Of a stretch of DNA of 64,000 nucleotides, positions 36,278-43,739 are shown one piece after another. The stretch is from contig CACYHW010000005.1 in NCBI GenBank assembly GCA_902774335.1, forward strand, positions 30,895 to 94,894, in the 5' to 3' direction. Below the pieces are notes generated by a model. The model searched no databases. It saw nothing but the letters and a program-made list of their open reading frames with translations, and was not told the origin of the DNA. Numbering within the stretch: position 1 is the stretch's first letter; each line of letters starts with the position of its first letter. The position numbers were made by a program, and so were the translations under genes. The stretch is from an uncultured Bacteroidales bacterium. GTDB taxonomy: Bacteria > Bacteroidota > Bacteroidia > Bacteroidales > Bacteroidaceae.

Positions 36278-36328
36278 CACCTTAGGGAAGAAAATGGCCC
36301 TACGTGCGCTACAGTTCCCTAAGGTCAG
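36278..36328. repeat. 51-bp palindromic repeat, copy 2, overlapping the HAD gene end
   Basis: Same orientation as copy 1. Its right half forms the last codons of the HAD gene on the minus strand (…SDLREL and the stop codon at 36309), so the repeat contributes to coding sequence. Confidence 0.8.
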
Positions 36329-36950
36329 AGGGGAGAGAACTCAGTGGAGATGAGGGAGTTATTTGGATGGTTTGGCAGCCGATGGATTGGGCGGGGAGGA
36401 TGTCTTTTTCCAGGCTGTCACCTATCATTACGGTTTCCCGGGGCTCCAGGCCTAATGCGGCTACTCCCAGGCGGAAGATCTGGGGATCTGGTTTGCGGAC
36501 TCCTGCTACGGCCGATTCTATTACGTCTTTAAAAAGGTGACTTAGTCCGAACTCTTCAAGCACCGTGTGCATGTTGCCGTAAAAGTTTGTAACAAGCACC
36601 ATGGGCAGTTTTATTCTTTCCAAGACGGGTTTGGAGACGGTGGTGATATGTTTTACCACTTTGTTGTAGCAGGTGTCAAGGATGGTGTCCTGCGCGTTTA
36701 CAGCAACACCGTGCTGCTGCAGATACTCTGTCTGGAGGGCAATCTTGGTCTGCAGGGTTTTGCAGAATGTATAATCGGGCCCGATGATGGGGTTGCGGCC
36801 CAGGGTGCGCTCGGTGTAGACATATGCCTCATACAGCAGATCCTCGGGTATATCGGCCACAACGGAGTATGCTTCCCTGAAGGCGTTGAACCAGTGGATG
36901 CCGTCGGAGTCGATCGTTCCTCCAAAATCTATCAGAATACCCTTAATCAT
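36309..36950 (-). CDS. HAD-superfamily hydrolase
   Basis: Haloacid-dehalogenase-fold phosphatase (213 aa), last gene of the five-gene lipid-like cassette. Motif I reads ILIDFGGTID: nucleophile Asp8 is present, but the second Asp of DxDxT is Gly10, so acid/base catalysis must differ from standard phosphatases. Motif II is LVTNFYG, motif III RKPDPQIF and motif IV MIGDSLEKD; a helical cap spans about residues 18-85. It overlaps the membrane-protein gene by 8 nt. Inferred role: removing a phosphate from an intermediate of the cassette. Its last codons come from a palindromic repeat. Confidence 0.85.
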   Translation of the reverse strand: MIKGILIDFGGTIDSDGIHWFNAFREAYSVVADIPEDLLYEAYVYTERTLGRNPIIGPDYTFCKTLQTKIALQTEYLQQHGVAVNAQDTILDTCYNKVVKHITTVSKPVLERIKLPMVLVTNFYGNMHTVLEEFGLSHLFKDVIESAVAGVRKPDPQIFRLGVAALGLEPRETVMIGDSLEKDILPAQSIGCQTIQITPSSPLSSLPSDLREL

Positions 36951-37953
36951 GTTTGCGTCCCGTTTTCATCATTATTATGCCGATAACCGTCCAGACAATC
37001 TGGCGCAGACGTGCCACAAGTGCGGTGTAGAGTCCGTATGCGCCGGGCACCTGTATACCACCGGCTGCCAGAGCCATTCCGCCCTCGTATCCGCCCATCT
37101 GCATGGGTGAGAAGAATATCAGGTTGCTGAACAGCGACGAGAATGCCATTACCAGTATGCTGTCCCAGAAGCTGAATCCCGGCATGAGCATACCTATCAG
37201 AAGCCAGTACTCCAGGCATGAAACCACGCGTGCGGCGTACTCCAGAAAGAGCGACCACCAGAACGGAGCCTTGCGCTGAGTATGCAGGAACGCAATTTGG
37301 CTGTCCACCTCCTCAAGTTCTGCCCTATGTTTGTCCAGATAGCCGGCAGCCCATTTCTTAACCAGCGGGATACGGCTCAAAAGACCGAATACCTTGACCA
37401 CGAATCCGTGTCGGTAACCCAGCGAGAAGAACCAGAGCACAAGAACGAACACCACGCTCATTACACCCAGCATCACGCACATCCACGCATTGAGCACATA
37501 CTTTGAGCCCACGCAGAAATGGAGCACCACATATAGCACCACGGCCGACAGCCAGAAACAGAAGTGCGAGCAGATATGCATCATGGAGTAAAGGATCACA
37601 GCCGATGACGCCTTCCTGCCGCCCACAAAACCGGACAGCTCAAGGATGCGGTAAGGCTCACCTCCCATGAGTCCGAGCGGAGTGACATAGTTGAGCGCAT
37701 ACCCCGAGACGGTCAGTTGGAACACCTTGCCGAACGGTACGCGGCGGCTGGTGCCGTCATTGATGATGAGCCCGAACGAGCAGGCGTTCATCAGATAGAT
37801 CAGCCCCCAAAGCAGCACAATGACAGGAAACCATATTCCAGCATCGGAAAGCACCTCCCTGACGCGGTTCCAGTCAGCATCGAAGGTGAGCAGCATGAGT
37901 ACCACCGCCGCTACTCCGAATACAAAGAATATGTTCTGCCAGCGTTTTTTCAT
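36943..37953 (-). CDS. YbhN/LPG-synthase-like membrane protein (putative flippase)
   Basis: Integral membrane protein (336 aa, about 8 hydrophobic segments) of the lysylphosphatidylglycerol-synthase transmembrane / UPF0104 family. Diagnostic stretch is VSGYALNYVTPLGLMGGEPYR (split here between loop and helix near residue 85), with FFSPMQMGGYEGGMALAAGG near residue 285. Relatives are the flippase half of MprF or stand-alone proteins of unknown transport role. It overlaps the CDP-alcohol phosphotransferase gene by 4 nt and the HAD gene by 8 nt, suggesting it moves that enzyme's product across the membrane; this is inference. Confidence 0.85.
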   Translation of the reverse strand: MKKRWQNIFFVFGVAAVVLMLLTFDADWNRVREVLSDAGIWFPVIVLLWGLIYLMNACSFGLIINDGTSRRVPFGKVFQLTVSGYALNYVTPLGLMGGEPYRILELSGFVGGRKASSAVILYSMMHICSHFCFWLSAVVLYVVLHFCVGSKYVLNAWMCVMLGVMSVVFVLVLWFFSLGYRHGFVVKVFGLLSRIPLVKKWAAGYLDKHRAELEEVDSQIAFLHTQRKAPFWWSLFLEYAARVVSCLEYWLLIGMLMPGFSFWDSILVMAFSSLFSNLIFFSPMQMGGYEGGMALAAGGIQVPGAYGLYTALVARLRQIVWTVIGIIMMKTGRKHD

Positions 37954-38876
37954 ATCCTCTCCATCATATCACGGCATGCTTTCTCGTGATAAGCCTTCAT
38001 GCCGTAAAAGATTATGTTCATGACCGTAAGCTCAAACACAAAGTATATCCAGGGCTCACCTACGAGCAGTGTTATGTAGAGCGCTATGGCGCGGGTATTG
38101 AAAGTCGATATGTTGGTCCATTTGAGAACGGGATATGTGCGGCGGCAGAACTCCTGTCCCAGCTCCTGAGGAATCTCATTGCCGTACTTGGCGCGCACAG
38201 CATCACGGAACTTCTGGAAGCAGGGCGTCATGCCCTCCTGACTGCGGGTGTAGTTCTGATAGAAAAAGAGCCATATCTTCCAGAACCAGCGCTCACGCCA
38301 TGGAGTGTTACTCTGCTGCTCCGCAAGTTCACGGCTGTCGTTGAGTTCGGCGTTATCGCCGTGAAACAGCAGATAGATGTTACGGTAATAGTCGGCCAGA
38401 CCTGCCTGACGCGAGTGGAACACTATGCTCGAAAAGAACTCCAGTACCCATATCCATATACCCCACACACGGCCGTCACCGAAAGGCATGGGTTCAAAGG
38501 TGAGCCTGACGGCCAGGAATATGTAGATGGAGGCAAACCAAAGGTCACCGGCAAAACCGTCCAGCAGACGCCCCCACAGGGTCTTCTTGCCGGTCATACG
38601 TGCCAGCTGTCCGTCGGCGCTGTCCAGGAAGTTTGCCAGCATGAGCATGGCTATTCCAAGTATCGTCCAGTCAAGGGTGGTGTGCCACCAGCAGAAACCT
38701 GCAAATACCCCAAGGAATATGGATATTACGGTAACTACATTGGGATGGATATTAAGAGCCTCAAAGAAACGTGCAAGCACATATCCTATGGGGCGTGTAA
38801 ACCATATGTCAAGCCACTCCTCGGTATCCTTGGATTTGAAAGTGGCAGCTATTTTTCCTTGTTTCCTATCTGTCAT
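37950..38876 (-). CDS. CDP-alcohol phosphatidyltransferase family protein
   Basis: Membrane enzyme that transfers a phospho-alcohol from a CDP-activated donor. The full motif is visible near residue 87: DSADGQLARMTG followed by GRLLDGFAGD, giving all four aspartates of DxxDGxxAR…GxxxDxxxD. At 308 aa it is longer than typical phosphatidylglycerophosphate or phosphatidylserine synthases; an extra soluble segment (about 175-250, SRQAGLADYYRN onward) lies between membrane helices. ATG 38876 overlaps the ATP-grasp stop by 4 nt. With an adjacent nucleotidyltransferase gene it resembles the CTP:inositol-phosphate cytidylyltransferase/phosphotransferase pairing, but the alcohol is unknown. Confidence 0.88.
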   Translation of the reverse strand: MTDRKQGKIAATFKSKDTEEWLDIWFTRPIGYVLARFFEALNIHPNVVTVISIFLGVFAGFCWWHTTLDWTILGIAMLMLANFLDSADGQLARMTGKKTLWGRLLDGFAGDLWFASIYIFLAVRLTFEPMPFGDGRVWGIWIWVLEFFSSIVFHSRQAGLADYYRNIYLLFHGDNAELNDSRELAEQQSNTPWRERWFWKIWLFFYQNYTRSQEGMTPCFQKFRDAVRAKYGNEIPQELGQEFCRRTYPVLKWTNISTFNTRAIALYITLLVGEPWIYFVFELTVMNIIFYGMKAYHEKACRDMMERI

Positions 38877-39694
38877 CTCTTGTTCATTATCAGTTCCGCA
38901 ATCTTTTGCGCCGCGCCCACGGTGCATGTCCTGAAGCTGGGCCAGTCGTTGAAATCAATCAGGGTGACCTGTCCGTCCGGACCCACCACAGCATCTCCTC
39001 CGTAGACATCGGTCCCAAGCAGTTCCGATGCGCGGTCAGCTACGGCCGTAAGAGTGTCCATATCCACACAGGCGCTGTCGGGGTTATCGTTGTAACGCTC
39101 CTGTCCGAACTTGCTCTCCTTGACACCGGCGGCATAGCAGTCGGTAAGGCCTGAGCCGCGTACACCGTAGAACTTGACCACCCAGCCGGGCATGTGCGCC
39201 TGAAGCACGCACTCACCTATACCGCGCTCCGCAAAACTTCTGAGCGCCGCACGGCACTCGCCGGAGTTGCTTATGTATTGGACGTCGTCCTGTATCACGG
39301 AATGGCTGTCGGGGCGTTTGATCCAGCAGGGGTAGATGTTCCAGCCGGCGGGAATATCTTGAGTAGAGCAGATTACGCTCTCGGGAATAAGACCGCTGCC
39401 CTGTAAAAGAACTGTCTGAGCTGCCCGACCGCAGTTTCTGACGGCCTGCACAGTATTGGTTACCGTTAAGCCCGATGCTGCCAGTATATCCAGCGCCTCA
39501 CGGCTTCTTGCCATCTGGAAGATTGCGTCCGTACCGGCGGGAATACCGTCATGCACAAGCTCCTGCTCGGTCATGCTCACCACCTGGTGCCCGTGGCGCT
39601 CCAGTTCCAGGGCTACGGCACGAAACACGGCGGCATCGCCCGACACTCTGTTGGGCGAAAACGTCTCGGCACGGCTTACTCCAAGATATCTCAT
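38873..39694 (-). CDS. ATP-grasp-fold protein of unknown substrate
   Basis: Predicted ATP-dependent carboxylate ligase (273 aa). The fold is suggested by the order of an N-terminal Rossmann-like part (RYLGVSRAETFSPNRVSGD), a central CWIKRPDSHSV strand with the nucleotide-contacting Lys, VLQAHMPGWVVKFYGVRG, and the C-terminal metal site VTLIDFNDWPSF. It overlaps both neighbours by 4 nt, so it must be made in step with the nucleotidyltransferase and the CDP-alcohol enzyme. ATP-grasp enzymes join an acid to an amine or thiol, so an amino-acid- or peptide-like substituent on the head group is possible. I do not recognise a named family. Confidence 0.78.
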   Translation of the reverse strand: MRYLGVSRAETFSPNRVSGDAAVFRAVALELERHGHQVVSMTEQELVHDGIPAGTDAIFQMARSREALDILAASGLTVTNTVQAVRNCGRAAQTVLLQGSGLIPESVICSTQDIPAGWNIYPCWIKRPDSHSVIQDDVQYISNSGECRAALRSFAERGIGECVLQAHMPGWVVKFYGVRGSGLTDCYAAGVKESKFGQERYNDNPDSACVDMDTLTAVADRASELLGTDVYGGDAVVGPDGQVTLIDFNDWPSFRTCTVGAAQKIAELIMNKR

Positions 39695-40386
39695 TGTTCC
39701 GATGCTATCTGACAGGCCTTGGCCACATCACTTACATGGTCCACATCGACCACCTGTCCCATATCAAAAGCCTTGAGTCTGAGCCCCGATTCCAACAGAC
39801 GGCGCTGGAAATAGCGCATCCTGGTCTGTCCGCTCTCCACACACTCGCTGAGCACGTCAAGAGCACGGGTCTTAAGGGCATAAATACCCGCCGACACATA
39901 CCGGCATGATGCTTTCTCGTCCAGGAACCCCTTTATCATCATCTCCCCATCGGTATCAACATAGAGAGGTTTCTCGTCATCAACCAACCTGGTCACTCCC
40001 ATCACTCCGTCGTAAGGGGTACGGGCGAACTCATCCATCATGGCACTCAGGCTGCTCTCACGGAACACCGTATCGACGGTGGTCACGCAGAACCTGTCAC
40101 TGCCCAGGTAAGGGGCCAGTTCCATAAGGCTGTGCATGGGTGTGGGGGTACTCTTGACCGTAAGGTCTATAGGCAGCTCCCGGGCCAGGCCGGAAACGAA
40201 ATCGGCCACCGCGGGGTTATCGGCATTCACAATAACAGCTATACGGTCGGCGCCGCAACGCATCATGATGCGGGCCAGACGCTCTATCATGGGAACGCCG
40301 TTTATGGGCACCAACGGTTTGGGCTCACCAAAGCCCTCTGAGGCCAGACGGCTCCCCTTGCCTGCCGATATGATGCCGAACCGCAT
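39691..40386 (-). CDS. Sugar/alcohol-phosphate nucleotidyltransferase
   Basis: GT-A-fold nucleotidyltransferase (231 aa) with the NTP-binding signature ISAGKGSRLASEGFGEPKPL at the N terminus and metal-site region CVTTVDTVF near residue 95. Proteins of this kind activate sugar or polyol phosphates to NDP forms. First gene of the overlapping cassette and 12 nt after pdxA. Inferred role: making the CDP-alcohol donor used by the phosphotransferase two genes downstream. A cytidylyl preference is assumed from context, not shown by the sequence. It is distinct from the MurU-like protein at 47995. Confidence 0.85.
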   Translation of the reverse strand: MRFGIISAGKGSRLASEGFGEPKPLVPINGVPMIERLARIMMRCGADRIAVIVNADNPAVADFVSGLARELPIDLTVKSTPTPMHSLMELAPYLGSDRFCVTTVDTVFRESSLSAMMDEFARTPYDGVMGVTRLVDDEKPLYVDTDGEMMIKGFLDEKASCRYVSAGIYALKTRALDVLSECVESGQTRMRYFQRRLLESGLRLKAFDMGQVVDVDHVSDVAKACQIASEQ

Positions 40387-40398
40387 ATAAGAATCCTG

Positions 40399-41493
40399 TT
40401 AATCCTTATTGTTGGTATCCAGGTTCTTGAGTTTGTCGCTGTCGTCGCGACGGTCAAAGTAGAGTTTGCCCAGAGGGTTGGCATGTATCTTCTCCTCGTT
40501 GCGACGGCAACGCAGGATGTCTATCGCAGCAAAGATGGCCTGACGCATCGACTCCTCACTGGCCAGTCCCTTGCCTGCAATGTCATAGGCTGTACCGTGA
40601 TCGGGCGATGTGCGGACCACCGGCAGACCGGCGGTAAAGTTGACTCCGCACTCCATGTCAAGCGCCTTGAGTGGGATAAGTCCCTGATCGTGGTACATGG
40701 CCAGTACGGCATCGAACTTGCGGTAATCGCCGCTGCCAAAGAATCCGTCGGCCGAGAAGGGGCCGAAGCACTGGATCTTCTCGGCAACTGCCTCATCGAT
40801 GGCAGGCTTGATGATATCCTTCTCCTCCTTGCCGATAAGGCCGTCATCGCTGGCATGCGGGTTGAGAGCCAGCACGGCTATGCGAGGTATCTCAATGCCG
40901 AAATCGTTCTTGAGCGACTTGTAGAGTATTCTGAGTTTATCCTTGATAAGGTCCTTGTTCAGGAGTGAGGCAACCTTGGCGATGGGCTCGTGAACGGTAG
41001 CCAGAGCCACCCTCATAGAGTTGTTCATAAGAATCATGAGAGCATGGTTTCCCTCGCCCAGCTGAGCCTCGATATACTCGGTGTGACCCGGGAAATGAAA
41101 AGCGTCGGAGTGGATGCTCTTCTTGTTGATGGGAGCTGTAACCAGGACATCGATCATACCCTCACGGTACTCCTTCACGGCACGCTCCAGAGCCTGATAG
41201 GCGGCAGTACCACTCTCCTGGGTTGCCATTCCGAACTCAACCTTGACATCCTCGGCATTGCAGTTCACCAGATTCAGACGGTCGTTCTGTGCATCGGCGG
41301 CACTGTCCACAACACTGAAATTGGTAGGTGAGTCAATGGTCTTGCGGTGATAGGTCATCACCTTGGGTGAGCCATATACTACCGGAATACAGAACTCGAA
41401 CATGGTAGGATCCTCAAAGGTCTTGAGAATCACCTCGTATCCTATACCGTTTACATCACCCTGGGTTATTCCGACTTTTATCTTGTCACTCAT
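40399..41493 (-). CDS. pdxA: 4-hydroxythreonine-4-phosphate dehydrogenase
   Basis: NAD-dependent, metal-binding enzyme of the DXP-dependent vitamin B6 pathway. The N terminus is KVGITQGDVNGIGYEVILK. The metal-binding His of FPGHTEYIEAQLG and AMYHDQGLIPLKAL are present, as is VNFTAGLPVVRTSPDHGTAYD. It is 364 aa, slightly longer than E. coli PdxA because of a charged C-terminal tail (NTNNKD end). It follows the DUF4837 gene by 6 nt and precedes the nucleotidyltransferase by 12 nt. PdxJ is not nearby, so a PdxA2-like side role cannot be excluded, but the canonical call is most likely. Confidence 0.9.
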   Translation of the reverse strand: MSDKIKVGITQGDVNGIGYEVILKTFEDPTMFEFCIPVVYGSPKVMTYHRKTIDSPTNFSVVDSAADAQNDRLNLVNCNAEDVKVEFGMATQESGTAAYQALERAVKEYREGMIDVLVTAPINKKSIHSDAFHFPGHTEYIEAQLGEGNHALMILMNNSMRVALATVHEPIAKVASLLNKDLIKDKLRILYKSLKNDFGIEIPRIAVLALNPHASDDGLIGKEEKDIIKPAIDEAVAEKIQCFGPFSADGFFGSGDYRKFDAVLAMYHDQGLIPLKALDMECGVNFTAGLPVVRTSPDHGTAYDIAGKGLASEESMRQAIFAAIDILRCRRNEEKIHANPLGKLYFDRRDDSDKLKNLDTNNKD

Positions 41494-41499
41494 ATCGTA

Positions 41500-42702
41500 T
41501 TAATCTTCTGGTTCAATAATTATCTCTTCGAGATCATATCTGTATTTCTCCAAATCAAGTTCATCGGGAAGGCGCAGTGTATAGAGAGCTGCCTCAAGTC
41601 TCTTGAGCACGTTTCTCTTGGCCTGGTTGGGATAGTATACGAATCCCTCGGCCACAATCACACGCTGGTTCTTCTCGTCCACACGTGACACCGACACGAA
41701 CGGTCCGCCCATATCGTAATCCTTGACCTCCCAGAGGCCTCTTACTATCATTGCATACTCTCCGTGTACAGCCTCTTCGGACACCAGATTGAACTCCTTC
41801 CTGGTAATCACGTACTGCCCTTCCTTGGGACCGGGCACGTTTCTCTGCATCACGGAGTCACGTTTTCTGGTAAAGTACTCCTCGGTAAAAGTATCGGCAT
41901 CCCTGTAGGGATAGGAGTAGATGACCAGGTTAAGGTCCTGCTCCACCTTCTTGACGAATCTCTCGCAGCGGGCCCAAAGGAAATGGCGGCCCACGGTGAC
42001 CTTGGTAAGCTCGGTAGGAGCCCATATGTCACATCCGAACAGTTTCTTGACCTCCTCCTGCACATAGGGCTGATGATCCTCCCTGAGCAGGTCGCACTCG
42101 CGGTTGAGTTCGGCCTTGGTAAAGAAGTCTACTATGACGTCACGGTTGTCCATAACAAAGTGTTTGAACTTGATGGCGTCGGGAGCCTGGATGGTCATGA
42201 TTATCTGGGGAGCGGCATAGACATCCCTTGAGAACTTGAACTTGCACTTGCTGTAGGTTGAGGGATCAATCTTGATGATCACTATGTTGCGGCAAAGGCG
42301 CAGGTTCTTGGACAGGTTGTTCTGGTTAATCCTGGACACCTTGAAGCAGGGCTCCGACTGCAGGACACCGGCCATATCGTCGGTCAGTATCGAGTAGAGG
42401 GAATCCACGGCTCCGGAATGGAAATCGTCCTCGCCGGCCACAAGAAGTATCTCATAGGGCGATCCGGCCGATGTGGGAGTAAGGACGCCCTTCTTCTTTT
42501 TGCGGTTGCCGGTCTTACGGATCTCGGTGTTCTTGGATTTCTTGGACTTCTTGGCCTTTGCACCGCTCTTGGCCGATGTGCTGACCTCTTTCCCGGCGTT
42601 CTCCTTGCCGTTCTGTCCGGTCTGGGATGCACGGGAGCCGCATGCCACGGTCAACATAACCGCAAGCAGCATCATGCAAACTCTATAGATGTATTTTTTC
42701 AT
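41500..42702 (-). CDS. DUF4837 family lipoprotein
   Basis: Predicted lipoprotein (400 aa): signal MLLAVMLTVAC with lipidated Cys near residue 21, then a Lys/Ser-rich linker (KSGAKAKKSKKSKNTEIRK) before a globular domain from about residue 80. The pattern (YEILLVAGEDDFHSG, DSLYSILTDDM, then C-terminal FVYYPNQAKRNVLKRLEA) matches the Bacteroidetes DUF4837 family, whose function is unknown. It lies between rlmN (11 nt) and pdxA (6 nt) in one operon. The very basic linker could touch the cell wall or LPS, but this is speculation. Confidence 0.85.
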   Translation of the reverse strand: MKKYIYRVCMMLLAVMLTVACGSRASQTGQNGKENAGKEVSTSAKSGAKAKKSKKSKNTEIRKTGNRKKKKGVLTPTSAGSPYEILLVAGEDDFHSGAVDSLYSILTDDMAGVLQSEPCFKVSRINQNNLSKNLRLCRNIVIIKIDPSTYSKCKFKFSRDVYAAPQIIMTIQAPDAIKFKHFVMDNRDVIVDFFTKAELNRECDLLREDHQPYVQEEVKKLFGCDIWAPTELTKVTVGRHFLWARCERFVKKVEQDLNLVIYSYPYRDADTFTEEYFTRKRDSVMQRNVPGPKEGQYVITRKEFNLVSEEAVHGEYAMIVRGLWEVKDYDMGGPFVSVSRVDEKNQRVIVAEGFVYYPNQAKRNVLKRLEAALYTLRLPDELDLEKYRYDLEEIIIEPED

Positions 42703-42713
42703 ATCTAAAAGAT

Positions 42714-43739
42714 TTAGGAATTCTCGTTTTTAGCCGTACTCAGCATGCCGCACGCAGCCCAGATGTCCTCGCCTCGCGACGCACGTATGGTGGCGAACAC
42801 GCCGTGACCGGTAAGCCAGTCGCGGAACTCCACCATGCGCTCCTCGGGGACAGGACGCAGGGGGCTGTCCGGAATGGCATGGAATCGTATCAGGTTTACA
42901 CGGCAGCTCAGTCCGTTAAGTGTCTTGACAAGCTGGCGGGCATCGTCAATGGAGTCATTCACACCGTCAAACATGGTGTACTCGAACGACAGACGGCGCT
43001 GGTGGCTGAAGTCATATCGGCGCAGCACCTCCAGCATCTCGGTCATGGAGAAGGCCTTCTCGGCCGGGATAAGCTCACGGCGCTTTTGAGGCGTGGGAGC
43101 ATGCAGGCTCACTGCGATGTGGCACTCACAGCCCTCGATAAGCTGTTTGAGCTCGCGGCGCAGGCCCACTGTCGATATTGTGATGCGCTTGGGGCTCCAT
43201 CCGAATCCCCAGGGCGCGATCATGATCTCCTGAACGGCCAGGACGTTCTGCAGGTTGTCCAACGGCTCGCCCATGCCCATAAAGACCACGTTGGTCAGGT
43301 TCTCCTTGCCGGGCAGCGAGAGTATCTGGTTGAGTATCTCGCCGGCCGTGAGGCTTGCCGTATAGTGCTGGCGGCCTGTCATGCAGAACACGCAGCCCAT
43401 CTTGCAGCCCACCTGGCTCGATATGCAGAGTGTGGCGCGGTCGGCATCAGGAATATAGACAGCCTCCACAAAATGGCCGTCCTGCACGGGGAACAGATAC
43501 TTGACCGTGCCGTCCTGCGATGCGGCTGCATGCGATGGTGCAGCCAGAGCTACCTCGTAATTGGCAGCCAGACGCTCACGCAGCTTGAGCGATATGTTTG
43601 TCATCTGATCTATGGAACTAACCTGCTTGACATAGAGCCAGTCGGCCATCTGTTTGGCGGCGAACATAGGCATCCCTGTCTCAACGGCAACCTGCTGCAG
43701 TTCAGCCAGTGTCAATCCCACAAGATTCTTTTTTCCCAT
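42714..43739 (-). CDS. rlmN: 23S rRNA (adenine-2503-C2)-methyltransferase
   Basis: Radical-SAM enzyme that methylates C2 of A2503 in 23S rRNA and A37 in some tRNAs. The iron-sulfur motif is CKMGCVFCMTG (CxxxCxxC) near residue 111, followed by GEPLDNLQNV and SLHAPTPQKR. The C-terminal catalytic Cys region is ASRGEDIWAACGML, giving the second of the two methyl-transfer cysteines. It is full length (341 aa). First gene of the long minus-strand operon, with its own -7 box 17 nt upstream. Confidence 0.95.
   Translation of the reverse strand: MGKKNLVGLTLAELQQVAVETGMPMFAAKQMADWLYVKQVSSIDQMTNISLKLRERLAANYEVALAAPSHAAASQDGTVKYLFPVQDGHFVEAVYIPDADRATLCISSQVGCKMGCVFCMTGRQHYTASLTAGEILNQILSLPGKENLTNVVFMGMGEPLDNLQNVLAVQEIMIAPWGFGWSPKRITISTVGLRRELKQLIEGCECHIAVSLHAPTPQKRRELIPAEKAFSMTEMLEVLRRYDFSHQRRLSFEYTMFDGVNDSIDDARQLVKTLNGLSCRVNLIRFHAIPDSPLRPVPEERMVEFRDWLTGHGVFATIRASRGEDIWAACGMLSTAKNENS

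Follow-up and report, generated by a model that had tools for sequence, protein, structure and literature searches.

A conserved five-gene cassette of Bacteroidales that probably makes an inositol sphingolipid head group through CDP-inositol

Organization of the locus

We analyzed a 64,000-nt stretch of DNA, hereafter the window, from an uncultured Bacteroidales bacterium (Bacteroidaceae; GCA_902774335.1, contig CACYHW010000005.1, positions 30,895-94,894), whose genome assembly is 87% complete. Behind pdxA, the window contains a cassette of five genes, which a first-pass annotation had proposed to be an undescribed system for the synthesis of a modified lipid or polyol-phosphodiester head group. 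Our results suggest that the cassette probably makes the inositol sphingolipid head group of (dihydro)ceramide phosphoinositol by way of cytidine diphosphate (CDP)-inositol. The genes and motifs are as follows.

39691..40386, minus strand: nucleotidyltransferase, 231 amino acids (aa), proposed inositol-phosphate cytidylyltransferase (Pfam NTP_transf_3 above cut-off)
38873..39694, minus strand: ATP-grasp protein, 273 aa, proposed inositol or inositol-phosphate kinase (family profile and predicted fold)
37950..38876, minus strand: CDP-alcohol phosphotransferase, 308 aa, proposed CDP-inositol:(dihydro)ceramide phosphoinositol transferase (Pfam PF01066, 46 bits, cut-off 22)
36943..37953, minus strand: YbhN/HpnL-like membrane protein, 336 aa, proposed lipid flippase (Pfam PF03706, LPG_synthase_TM, 72.1 bits, cut-off 33.4)
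36309..36950, minus strand: HAD-superfamily hydrolase, 213 aa, proposed phosphatase (Pfam PF00702, 62.6 bits, cut-off 26.4)
38933..38956, minus strand: DxN motif of the ATP-grasp protein, D247-F-N-D-W-P-S-F254
39167..39175, minus strand: KFY motif of the ATP-grasp protein (K174)
38544..38624, minus strand: motif of the CDP-alcohol enzyme, DSADGQLAR-x8-GRLLDGFAGD, with Gly at the canonical fourth Asp and Asp as the next residue
36909..36929, minus strand: motif I of the HAD protein, D8-F-G-G-T-I-D14, without the usual second Asp
40399-41493, minus strand: pdxA, with 12 nt between its end and the first cassette gene

All five cassette frames lie on the minus strand and run uninterrupted from ATG to stop codon. 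For the CDP-alcohol gene, the ATG at 38876 gives a protein of 308 aa and an upstream ATG at 38927 one of 325 aa. The start at 38876 gives this gene a 4-nt overlap, and with it the successive overlaps are 4, 4, 4, and 8 nt, in agreement with the five overlapping genes of the first-pass annotation. Its ATP-grasp call was likewise backed by a family profile and a predicted fold, though the single sequence gave no firm Pfam or PDB match.

Conservation and co-occurrence of the cassette genes

A conservation scan of genome contigs yielded 22 loci titled Bacteroidales, Bacteroidaceae, or Prevotellaceae, with a ruminant or horse sample named in the titles of nine. RlmN, DUF4837, pdxA, and the five cassette genes were found in one order in 18 of the 22 loci, including one in which the ATP-grasp frame was cut short (L037); the other four reach the end of the contig or locus. 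In L047, the ATP-grasp protein and the CDP-alcohol enzyme form one 582-aa frame. A neighborhood comparison had been named in the first-pass annotation as a refutation test, and the five families proved to be conserved together, in order as well as in the co-occurrence described below. These two results rule out that the five genes come from separate pathways. RlmN, DUF4837, and pdxA (window 40399-43739) were found upstream of the cassette also outside the genus of the window, with no evident metabolic reason. One genome of this genus (G017) holds two full five-gene sets (L076 and L077), both behind RlmN-DUF4837-pdxA; the HAD gene of L077 was matched in three pieces.

Co-occurrence was surveyed in 393 Bacteroidales genomes, including that of the window, with thresholds of E <= 1e-3 for the ATP-grasp protein and for MIPS (inositol-phosphate synthase), E <= 1e-20 for the nucleotidyltransferase, and E <= 1e-50 for the CDP-alcohol enzyme. 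Three weak ATP-grasp matches (G249, G286, and G099) were dropped from 55 genomes, leaving 52, and four of 65 genomes that had only low-scoring CDP-alcohol paralogues (G048, G330, G347, and G390) were dropped, leaving 61. The nucleotidyltransferase was found in 51 genomes, 50 of which also had the ATP-grasp protein; the two are nearly inseparable. The ATP-grasp protein was also present in 51 of the 61 genomes with the CDP-alcohol enzyme. All three proteins are encoded by a single open frame of 825 aa in G219, and the nucleotidyltransferase and the ATP-grasp protein share a frame in G059, G247, and G393. Outside the window genome, 51 cassette loci contained the nucleotidyltransferase (48), the CDP-alcohol enzyme (48), HAD (44), MIPS (36), the YbhN-like gene (21), and pdxA (19). 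Some of the absences are due to contig ends, and the HAD genes of G047, G306, and G363 lie on another stretch. In the commonest layouts, the order was nucleotidyltransferase, ATP-grasp, CDP-alcohol enzyme, HAD, and MIPS, in some cases with the YbhN-like gene between the CDP-alcohol enzyme and HAD.

Inositol as the probable alcohol

The first-pass annotation had noted that no inositol-phosphate synthase lies in the window and had left the alcohol unknown. The former holds for the window but not for the genome, which carries MIPS, with both Pfam MIPS domains, on another contig; absence from the window is thus ruled out as an argument excluding inositol. The neighbors of this MIPS gene (L072, G000:C3) resemble arginine biosynthesis genes, as recognized by eye. 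MIPS was found in 62 of the surveyed genomes, and 47 of these were among the 52 with the ATP-grasp protein (Fisher's test, p ~ 1e-41, uncorrected for kinship). The two genes lay within 5 kb of each other in 38 of the 47 genomes with both, or in 38 of 46 when only relatives outside the genus were counted. Within the genus of the window (its own genome and 36 congeners), the ATP-grasp protein was present in 33 of 37 genomes and MIPS in 31 of 37, and the link between MIPS and the cassette is one of co-occurrence only. In G047, a 61% complete genome of another family, the cassette is split between two contigs, one carrying pdxA and the first genes, the other the last genes and MIPS; this genome seems to bridge the layout of the window and the MIPS-linked layout. 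Because MIPS is encoded in the same genome and lies within 5 kb of the cassette in most relatives outside the genus, the alcohol is very probably myo-inositol.

The nucleotidyltransferase fits this assignment by its best PDB match, 4jd0 (E 1.1e-6), the inositol-1-phosphate cytidylyltransferase of T. maritima (PMC12275187). R13, K23, and D105 were invariant in 18 alignment rows. By similarity, we propose that the window protein is an inositol-phosphate cytidylyltransferase. Activation of an alcohol phosphate and its transfer by the CDP-alcohol enzyme, as envisaged in the first-pass annotation, are supported, and we have good confidence in a CDP-inositol route to an inositol lipid.

Function of the ATP-grasp protein

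A profile of the ATP-grasp family matched 7drm, an ATP-grasp protein (4.8e-6), and 7pup, the inositol kinase ITPK4 (5.4e-6), about equally well, and both kinds were found further down. Plain membership in a Pfam family was rejected, since 20 members gave only scattered weak matches (LpxI_N, YheCD, RimK, ATPgrasp_ST, ITPK, and R2K); PF05770 (ITPK) matched one of the 20 at E 0.038 and did not match the window protein. Structure prediction, a check proposed in the first-pass annotation, recovered the ATP-grasp fold with a predicted local distance difference test (pLDDT) score of 83.8 and a Foldseek match to ArgX (3vpb; E 1.2e-12, TM 0.72). The metal-binding residues D234, D247, and N249 were invariant in 20 rows. 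The modeled fold and these residues fit the ATP-grasp superfamily, to which the window protein appears to belong.

The first-pass annotation had assigned amide bond formation to this protein, which would then be a ligase attaching an amino acid or acid to the inositol head group by an amide or ester bond. All of the best 50 of 374 fold matches (E <= 0.001) are of ligase type (ArgX, D-Ala-D-Ala ligases, and RimK-type proteins), inositol kinases being absent from these 50, and 7drm, 7qys, and 3vpb are ligase-type matches of the family profile. In five PDB alignments, however, the DxN and Lys of the family are replaced by ExN and Arg in three ligase-type chains. ITPK4 has both DxN and Lys and 1z2n has DxN, Lys being seen in one of the two ITPKs. 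DxN followed by PSF or PSY was found in 75 of 82 distinct sequences, as was K-x-Y, with seven outside the pattern in either case; K174 was invariant in 20 rows. Two positions therefore fit inositol kinases and differ from the three ligases shown. Moreover, the tightest partner of the protein is the cytidylyltransferase, sometimes in one frame with it, which points to a step at or before CDP-inositol. We regard a ligase as rather unlikely. An inositol-ring kinase is preferred because of the inositol context and the cytidylyltransferase partner, and this function is tentatively assigned.

The CDP-alcohol enzyme and its partners

The window CDP-alcohol enzyme has the motif DxxDGxxAR-x8-GxxxDxxxGD, in which Gly127 replaces the canonical fourth Asp and Asp128 follows; the first-pass statement that all catalytic Asp are present was inexact. 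The fourth catalytic Asp of the PF01066 pattern GxxxDxxxD is accordingly absent from its usual site in the window enzyme. Among 103 distinct sequences, this site was GD in 80, GN in 10, and GV, GC, SD, and SE in one each; five low-scoring paralogues had the canonical D, and four, two of them fragments, yielded no motif. The family profile was nearest to AF2299, and both AF2299 and IPCT-DIPPS scored above the phosphoinositol (PI)-phosphate synthases. The predicted model of the CDP-alcohol enzyme had a pLDDT of 71, and its nearest fold, again AF2299, was found at E 5e-3. As there was no Foldseek match at E <= 0.001, we draw no conclusion on acceptor binding from this model.

Ten genomes had the CDP-alcohol enzyme without the ATP-grasp protein, and in seven of them the enzyme adjoins another cytidylyltransferase, which is IspD/TarI-like in five (L186-L190) and TagD-like in two (L191 and L192, with a short-chain reductase); these IspD/TarI-like and TagD-like matches fall below the NCBIfam cut-offs. 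These seven genomes have no MIPS, and no cassette-type HAD was labeled in their fetched stretches, the rest of the genomes being unsearched for HAD. This pattern suggests that the ATP-grasp protein and HAD go with the inositol version and that the CDP-alcohol enzyme is a module common to several versions. Three genomes fit this picture poorly. G075 (L201) has a nucleotidyltransferase fused to the CDP-alcohol enzyme, as in IPCT-DIPPS, and neither an ATP-grasp protein nor MIPS was matched in this genome. G141 and G295 contain MIPS; their CDP-alcohol copy is more distant and is located on another contig or more than 2 Mb off, with no cytidylyltransferase recognized beside it.

A TagD-like gene also adjoins a second CDP-alcohol copy in L196, L197, and L199, whose genomes carry the inositol cassette. 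The pairing of a CDP-alcohol enzyme with a TagD-like gene was seen in all five loci scanned (L191, L192, L196, L197, and L199), with a GlsA/OlsF-like acyltransferase in L191; these sets are a candidate route to phosphoglycerol ceramide. In L186 and L190, a second small CDP-alcohol protein lies near the CDP-alcohol enzyme and the IspD/TarI-like gene.

Motif I of HAD was DFGGT, DYGGT, or DYGAT in 71 of 76 distinct sequences, the other five being cut or unmatched. The YbhN-like protein, encoded in fewer than half of the 51 cassette loci, is proposed from its family match to be a lipid flippase.

Relation to known gene clusters

By layout, the cassette corresponds to a predicted cluster of Bacteroides (Phocaeicola) vulgatus, BVU_RS13095 to RS13115, termed the "putative alternative inositol lipid cluster" (Heaver 2022, PMC9246714). 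The nucleotidyltransferase, CDP-alcohol enzyme, and HAD that define it are all present in the cassette. By locus-tag steps, both have the nucleotidyltransferase first, the CDP-alcohol enzyme third, and HAD fifth, and both have an LPG-synthase-like gene in the vicinity and MIPS in the genome. Unlike in B. vulgatus, MIPS is unlinked in the window genome; P. copri was noted as an exception to the presence of MIPS in the vicinity of the cluster (PMC9246714), as in the window genome. Orthology with the B. vulgatus cluster is judged from layout and from relatives. The term "ATP-grasp" does not occur in the main text of PMC9246714, and literature searches returned no report of an ATP-grasp protein in the alternative inositol lipid cluster.

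The BT-like cluster of B. thetaiotaomicron comprises a PI-phosphate synthase, a PI-phosphate phosphatase, an AUR1-like PI-ceramide synthase, and MIPS; like the proposed route, it starts from MIPS and ends in inositol lipids. No match to PAP2_3 (PF14378), which we take to be the family of AUR1, was found in the 87%-complete window genome, and a control search was positive in 11 of 14 genomes, Bacteroides ihuae included. The window genome also has no further PI-type CDP-alcohol enzyme; besides the cassette enzyme, only a PssA-like one was found, adjoining phosphatidylserine decarboxylase.

Three other systems share parts with the cassette. IPCT-DIPPS (PDB 4mnd), which serves the CDP-inositol route of hyperthermophiles to di-inositol phosphate, has the cytidylyltransferase and the CDP-alcohol enzyme in common with it. 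The similarity of the window proteins to IPCT-DIPPS is weak (26.6 and 22.1 bits, family cut-off 580), and the cassette differs in having separate genes, an ATP-grasp protein, and HAD. In the CpgD route to ceramide diphosphoglycerate in Caulobacter, the same kind of cytidylyltransferase activates the head group of a ceramide lipid (PMC12275187). That head group is phosphoglycerate, not inositol, and "CDP-alcohol" does not occur in that paper. The ITPK inositol phosphate kinases (PF05770) share the ATP-grasp fold, DxN, and Lys at the KFY site with the cassette ATP-grasp protein and differ in sequence family, as described above.

Ceramide as the probable acceptor

The window genome encodes serine palmitoyltransferase, with 507 bits to the solved chains 8guh and 3a2b. 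With a threshold of 390 bits (the next group of matches reaches at most 287), this enzyme was found in 46 of 52 genomes with the ATP-grasp protein, 55 of 61 with the CDP-alcohol enzyme, and all 10 with the CDP-alcohol enzyme but without the ATP-grasp protein, versus 22 of 80 controls, which carry none of these genes and were taken from 110 genomes drawn at random. Four genomes belonging to one family have serine palmitoyltransferase some 6 kb upstream of their inositol cassette.

A second gene set is located between serine palmitoyltransferase and the inositol cassette in L069, L205, L207, and L208 (with L146, L147, and L148). Its families, scanned in L069 and partly in L205, comprise a HisC/CobD-like pyridoxal phosphate enzyme, a LysE-like protein, a CDP-alcohol enzyme that retains the canonical fourth Asp, and a nucleotidyltransferase; for the last of these, a PDB search made for L069 gave CTP:phosphocholine cytidylyltransferase as the best match. 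Judging from these families, the second set could be a CDP-ethanolamine route to ceramide phosphoethanolamine.

The scheme published for the B. vulgatus cluster has a different acceptor: CDP-inositol and diacylglycerol (DAG) would give PI-DAG, which HAD would then convert to PI-ceramide, with no role for the ATP-grasp protein (Heaver 2022, PMC9246714). That paper predicted the same three families beside MIPS and reported thin-layer chromatography bands consistent with PI-DAG and PI-ceramide in species without BT-type genes; PI-ceramide was confirmed by mass spectrometry in two of these species, and vulgatus and P. veroralis are named. In B. vulgatus, however, ceramide-PI made up 1% of sphingolipids and diacyl-PI was undetected (Ryan 2023, PMC10056535). 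The scheme also omits the ATP-grasp protein, which accompanies the nucleotidyltransferase in 50 of 51 genomes. To our knowledge, no HAD hydrolase exchanges lipid head groups. We consider the diacylglycerol scheme improbable. The later lipid data agree better with direct transfer to ceramide, although the chromatography bands speak against it, and ceramide is a fairly probable direct acceptor of the CDP-alcohol enzyme.

A much less probable product is an inositol phosphodiester (for instance, di-inositol phosphate) that is soluble or bound to the surface, with HAD acting as its phosphatase. The higher profile scores of AF2299 and IPCT-DIPPS and the minor capsule inositol of B. thetaiotaomicron (PMC9246714) would agree with it. 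The co-occurrence of serine palmitoyltransferase and its linkage in four genomes, the YbhN-like partner in part of the loci, and the use of the CDP-alcohol enzyme with other cytidylyltransferases, with serine palmitoyltransferase then present in every genome, stand against it.

Proposed route and observations against it

From the observed gene content, its conservation, its co-occurrence with MIPS and serine palmitoyltransferase, and the published lipids of B. vulgatus, we infer every catalytic step of the following route. MIPS, encoded elsewhere in the genome, would form inositol-3-phosphate from glucose-6-phosphate. The ATP-grasp protein would phosphorylate the inositol ring, and the nucleotidyltransferase, paired with it, would join the ring phosphate to cytidine monophosphate (CMP). 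The CDP-alcohol enzyme would then move phosphoinositol onto (dihydro)ceramide with release of CMP. HAD would strip the surplus phosphate, either from inositol-3-phosphate before the ATP-grasp step or from the lipid after transfer, and the YbhN-like protein, where present, may help the lipid across the membrane.

The product of MIPS is 1D-inositol-3-phosphate, whereas the usual phosphoinositides carry their linkage at position 1. Direct conversion of the MIPS product to CDP-inositol would lead to the other enantiomer, and a ring kinase and a phosphatase together would shift the phosphate from position 3 to position 1. In the early option, HAD would free inositol and the ATP-grasp protein would re-phosphorylate it; in the late option, the ATP-grasp protein would make a bisphosphate and HAD would clear the spare phosphate from the finished lipid. 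The late option is slightly favored because the five genomes with the ATP-grasp protein and without MIPS all keep a cassette-type HAD (G247, G325, G329, and G388, and G306 on another contig).

Several observations weigh against this route. The motif of the CDP-alcohol enzyme departs from the canonical one, and the B. vulgatus enzyme was found by a pattern ending GX3DX3D (PMC9246714). HAD lacks the second Asp of motif I, so that the phosphatase pattern DxDx(T/V) was not found in the window protein; D8, G10, G11, T12, and D14 were invariant in 16 rows. YihX is an active phosphatase with Gly at the second-Asp site. The fold matches of the ATP-grasp protein and the chromatography bands, both described above, belong here as well. 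MIPS is missing in five of 52 genomes with the ATP-grasp protein, two of them 99% complete (G325 and G388), and 15 of 62 genomes with MIPS lack the ATP-grasp protein, among them G141 and G295, which have a CDP-alcohol enzyme of the family. Serine palmitoyltransferase is missing in six of 52 genomes with the ATP-grasp protein: G047 (61% complete), G375 (71%), G247 (86%), G393 (90%), G381 (1.0 Mb), and G158 (97%). Among 14 genomes that have MIPS but not the CDP-alcohol enzyme, 11 also have serine palmitoyltransferase, which hence marks inositol-lipid makers more widely, so that its link is not cassette-specific. The co-occurrence statistics as a whole are uncorrected for kinship.

A further point is that MIPS and the cassette lie on different contigs in all 30 genomes of the window's genus that have both. 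This, and the occurrence of the CDP-alcohol family with other cytidylyltransferases, would agree with a cassette that serves another alcohol in this genus, a very unlikely reading given that MIPS and the ATP-grasp protein are found in most of its genomes, that the order of the five genes is the same as in the MIPS-linked form, and that G047, from another family, has pdxA at one end of its two-contig cassette and MIPS at the other.

Implications for inositol sphingolipids of Bacteroidales

Synthesis of (dihydro)ceramide phosphoinositol through CDP-inositol thus remains the probable function of the cassette. The first-pass view of an undescribed system holds in part: a nucleotidyltransferase, a CDP-alcohol enzyme, and HAD beside MIPS were proposed in 2022, and the ATP-grasp protein had no role in that proposal. 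By its layout, the cassette is a member of the predicted cluster and no new kind of system. What is new is that the ATP-grasp protein is placed in the core of the set, that ceramide is argued to be the acceptor, and that one type of transferase is pictured as working with different head-group activators.

A broader reading, which we regard as doubtful when taken as a whole, is that the ATP-grasp proteins are an undescribed family of bacterial inositol-ring kinases, obligately paired with a cytidylyltransferase and moving the phosphate from position 3 to position 1 together with HAD. The CDP-alcohol enzymes would then be a Bacteroidales family of CDP-alcohol:ceramide phosphotransferases with a shifted fourth Asp, whose head group would be set by the adjacent cytidylyltransferase (inositol, IspD/TarI-type, or TagD-type).

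In gut Bacteroidales, inositol sphingolipids are similar to lipids of the host; for the lineages with this cluster, their synthesis has been published only as an in-silico scheme. The present analysis adds a fifth enzyme to the route and argues for ceramide over diacylglycerol as the acceptor. If the CDP-alcohol:ceramide transferase family is real, it could also explain other, so far unassigned head groups of bacterial sphingolipids, such as phosphoglycerol and phosphoethanolamine.

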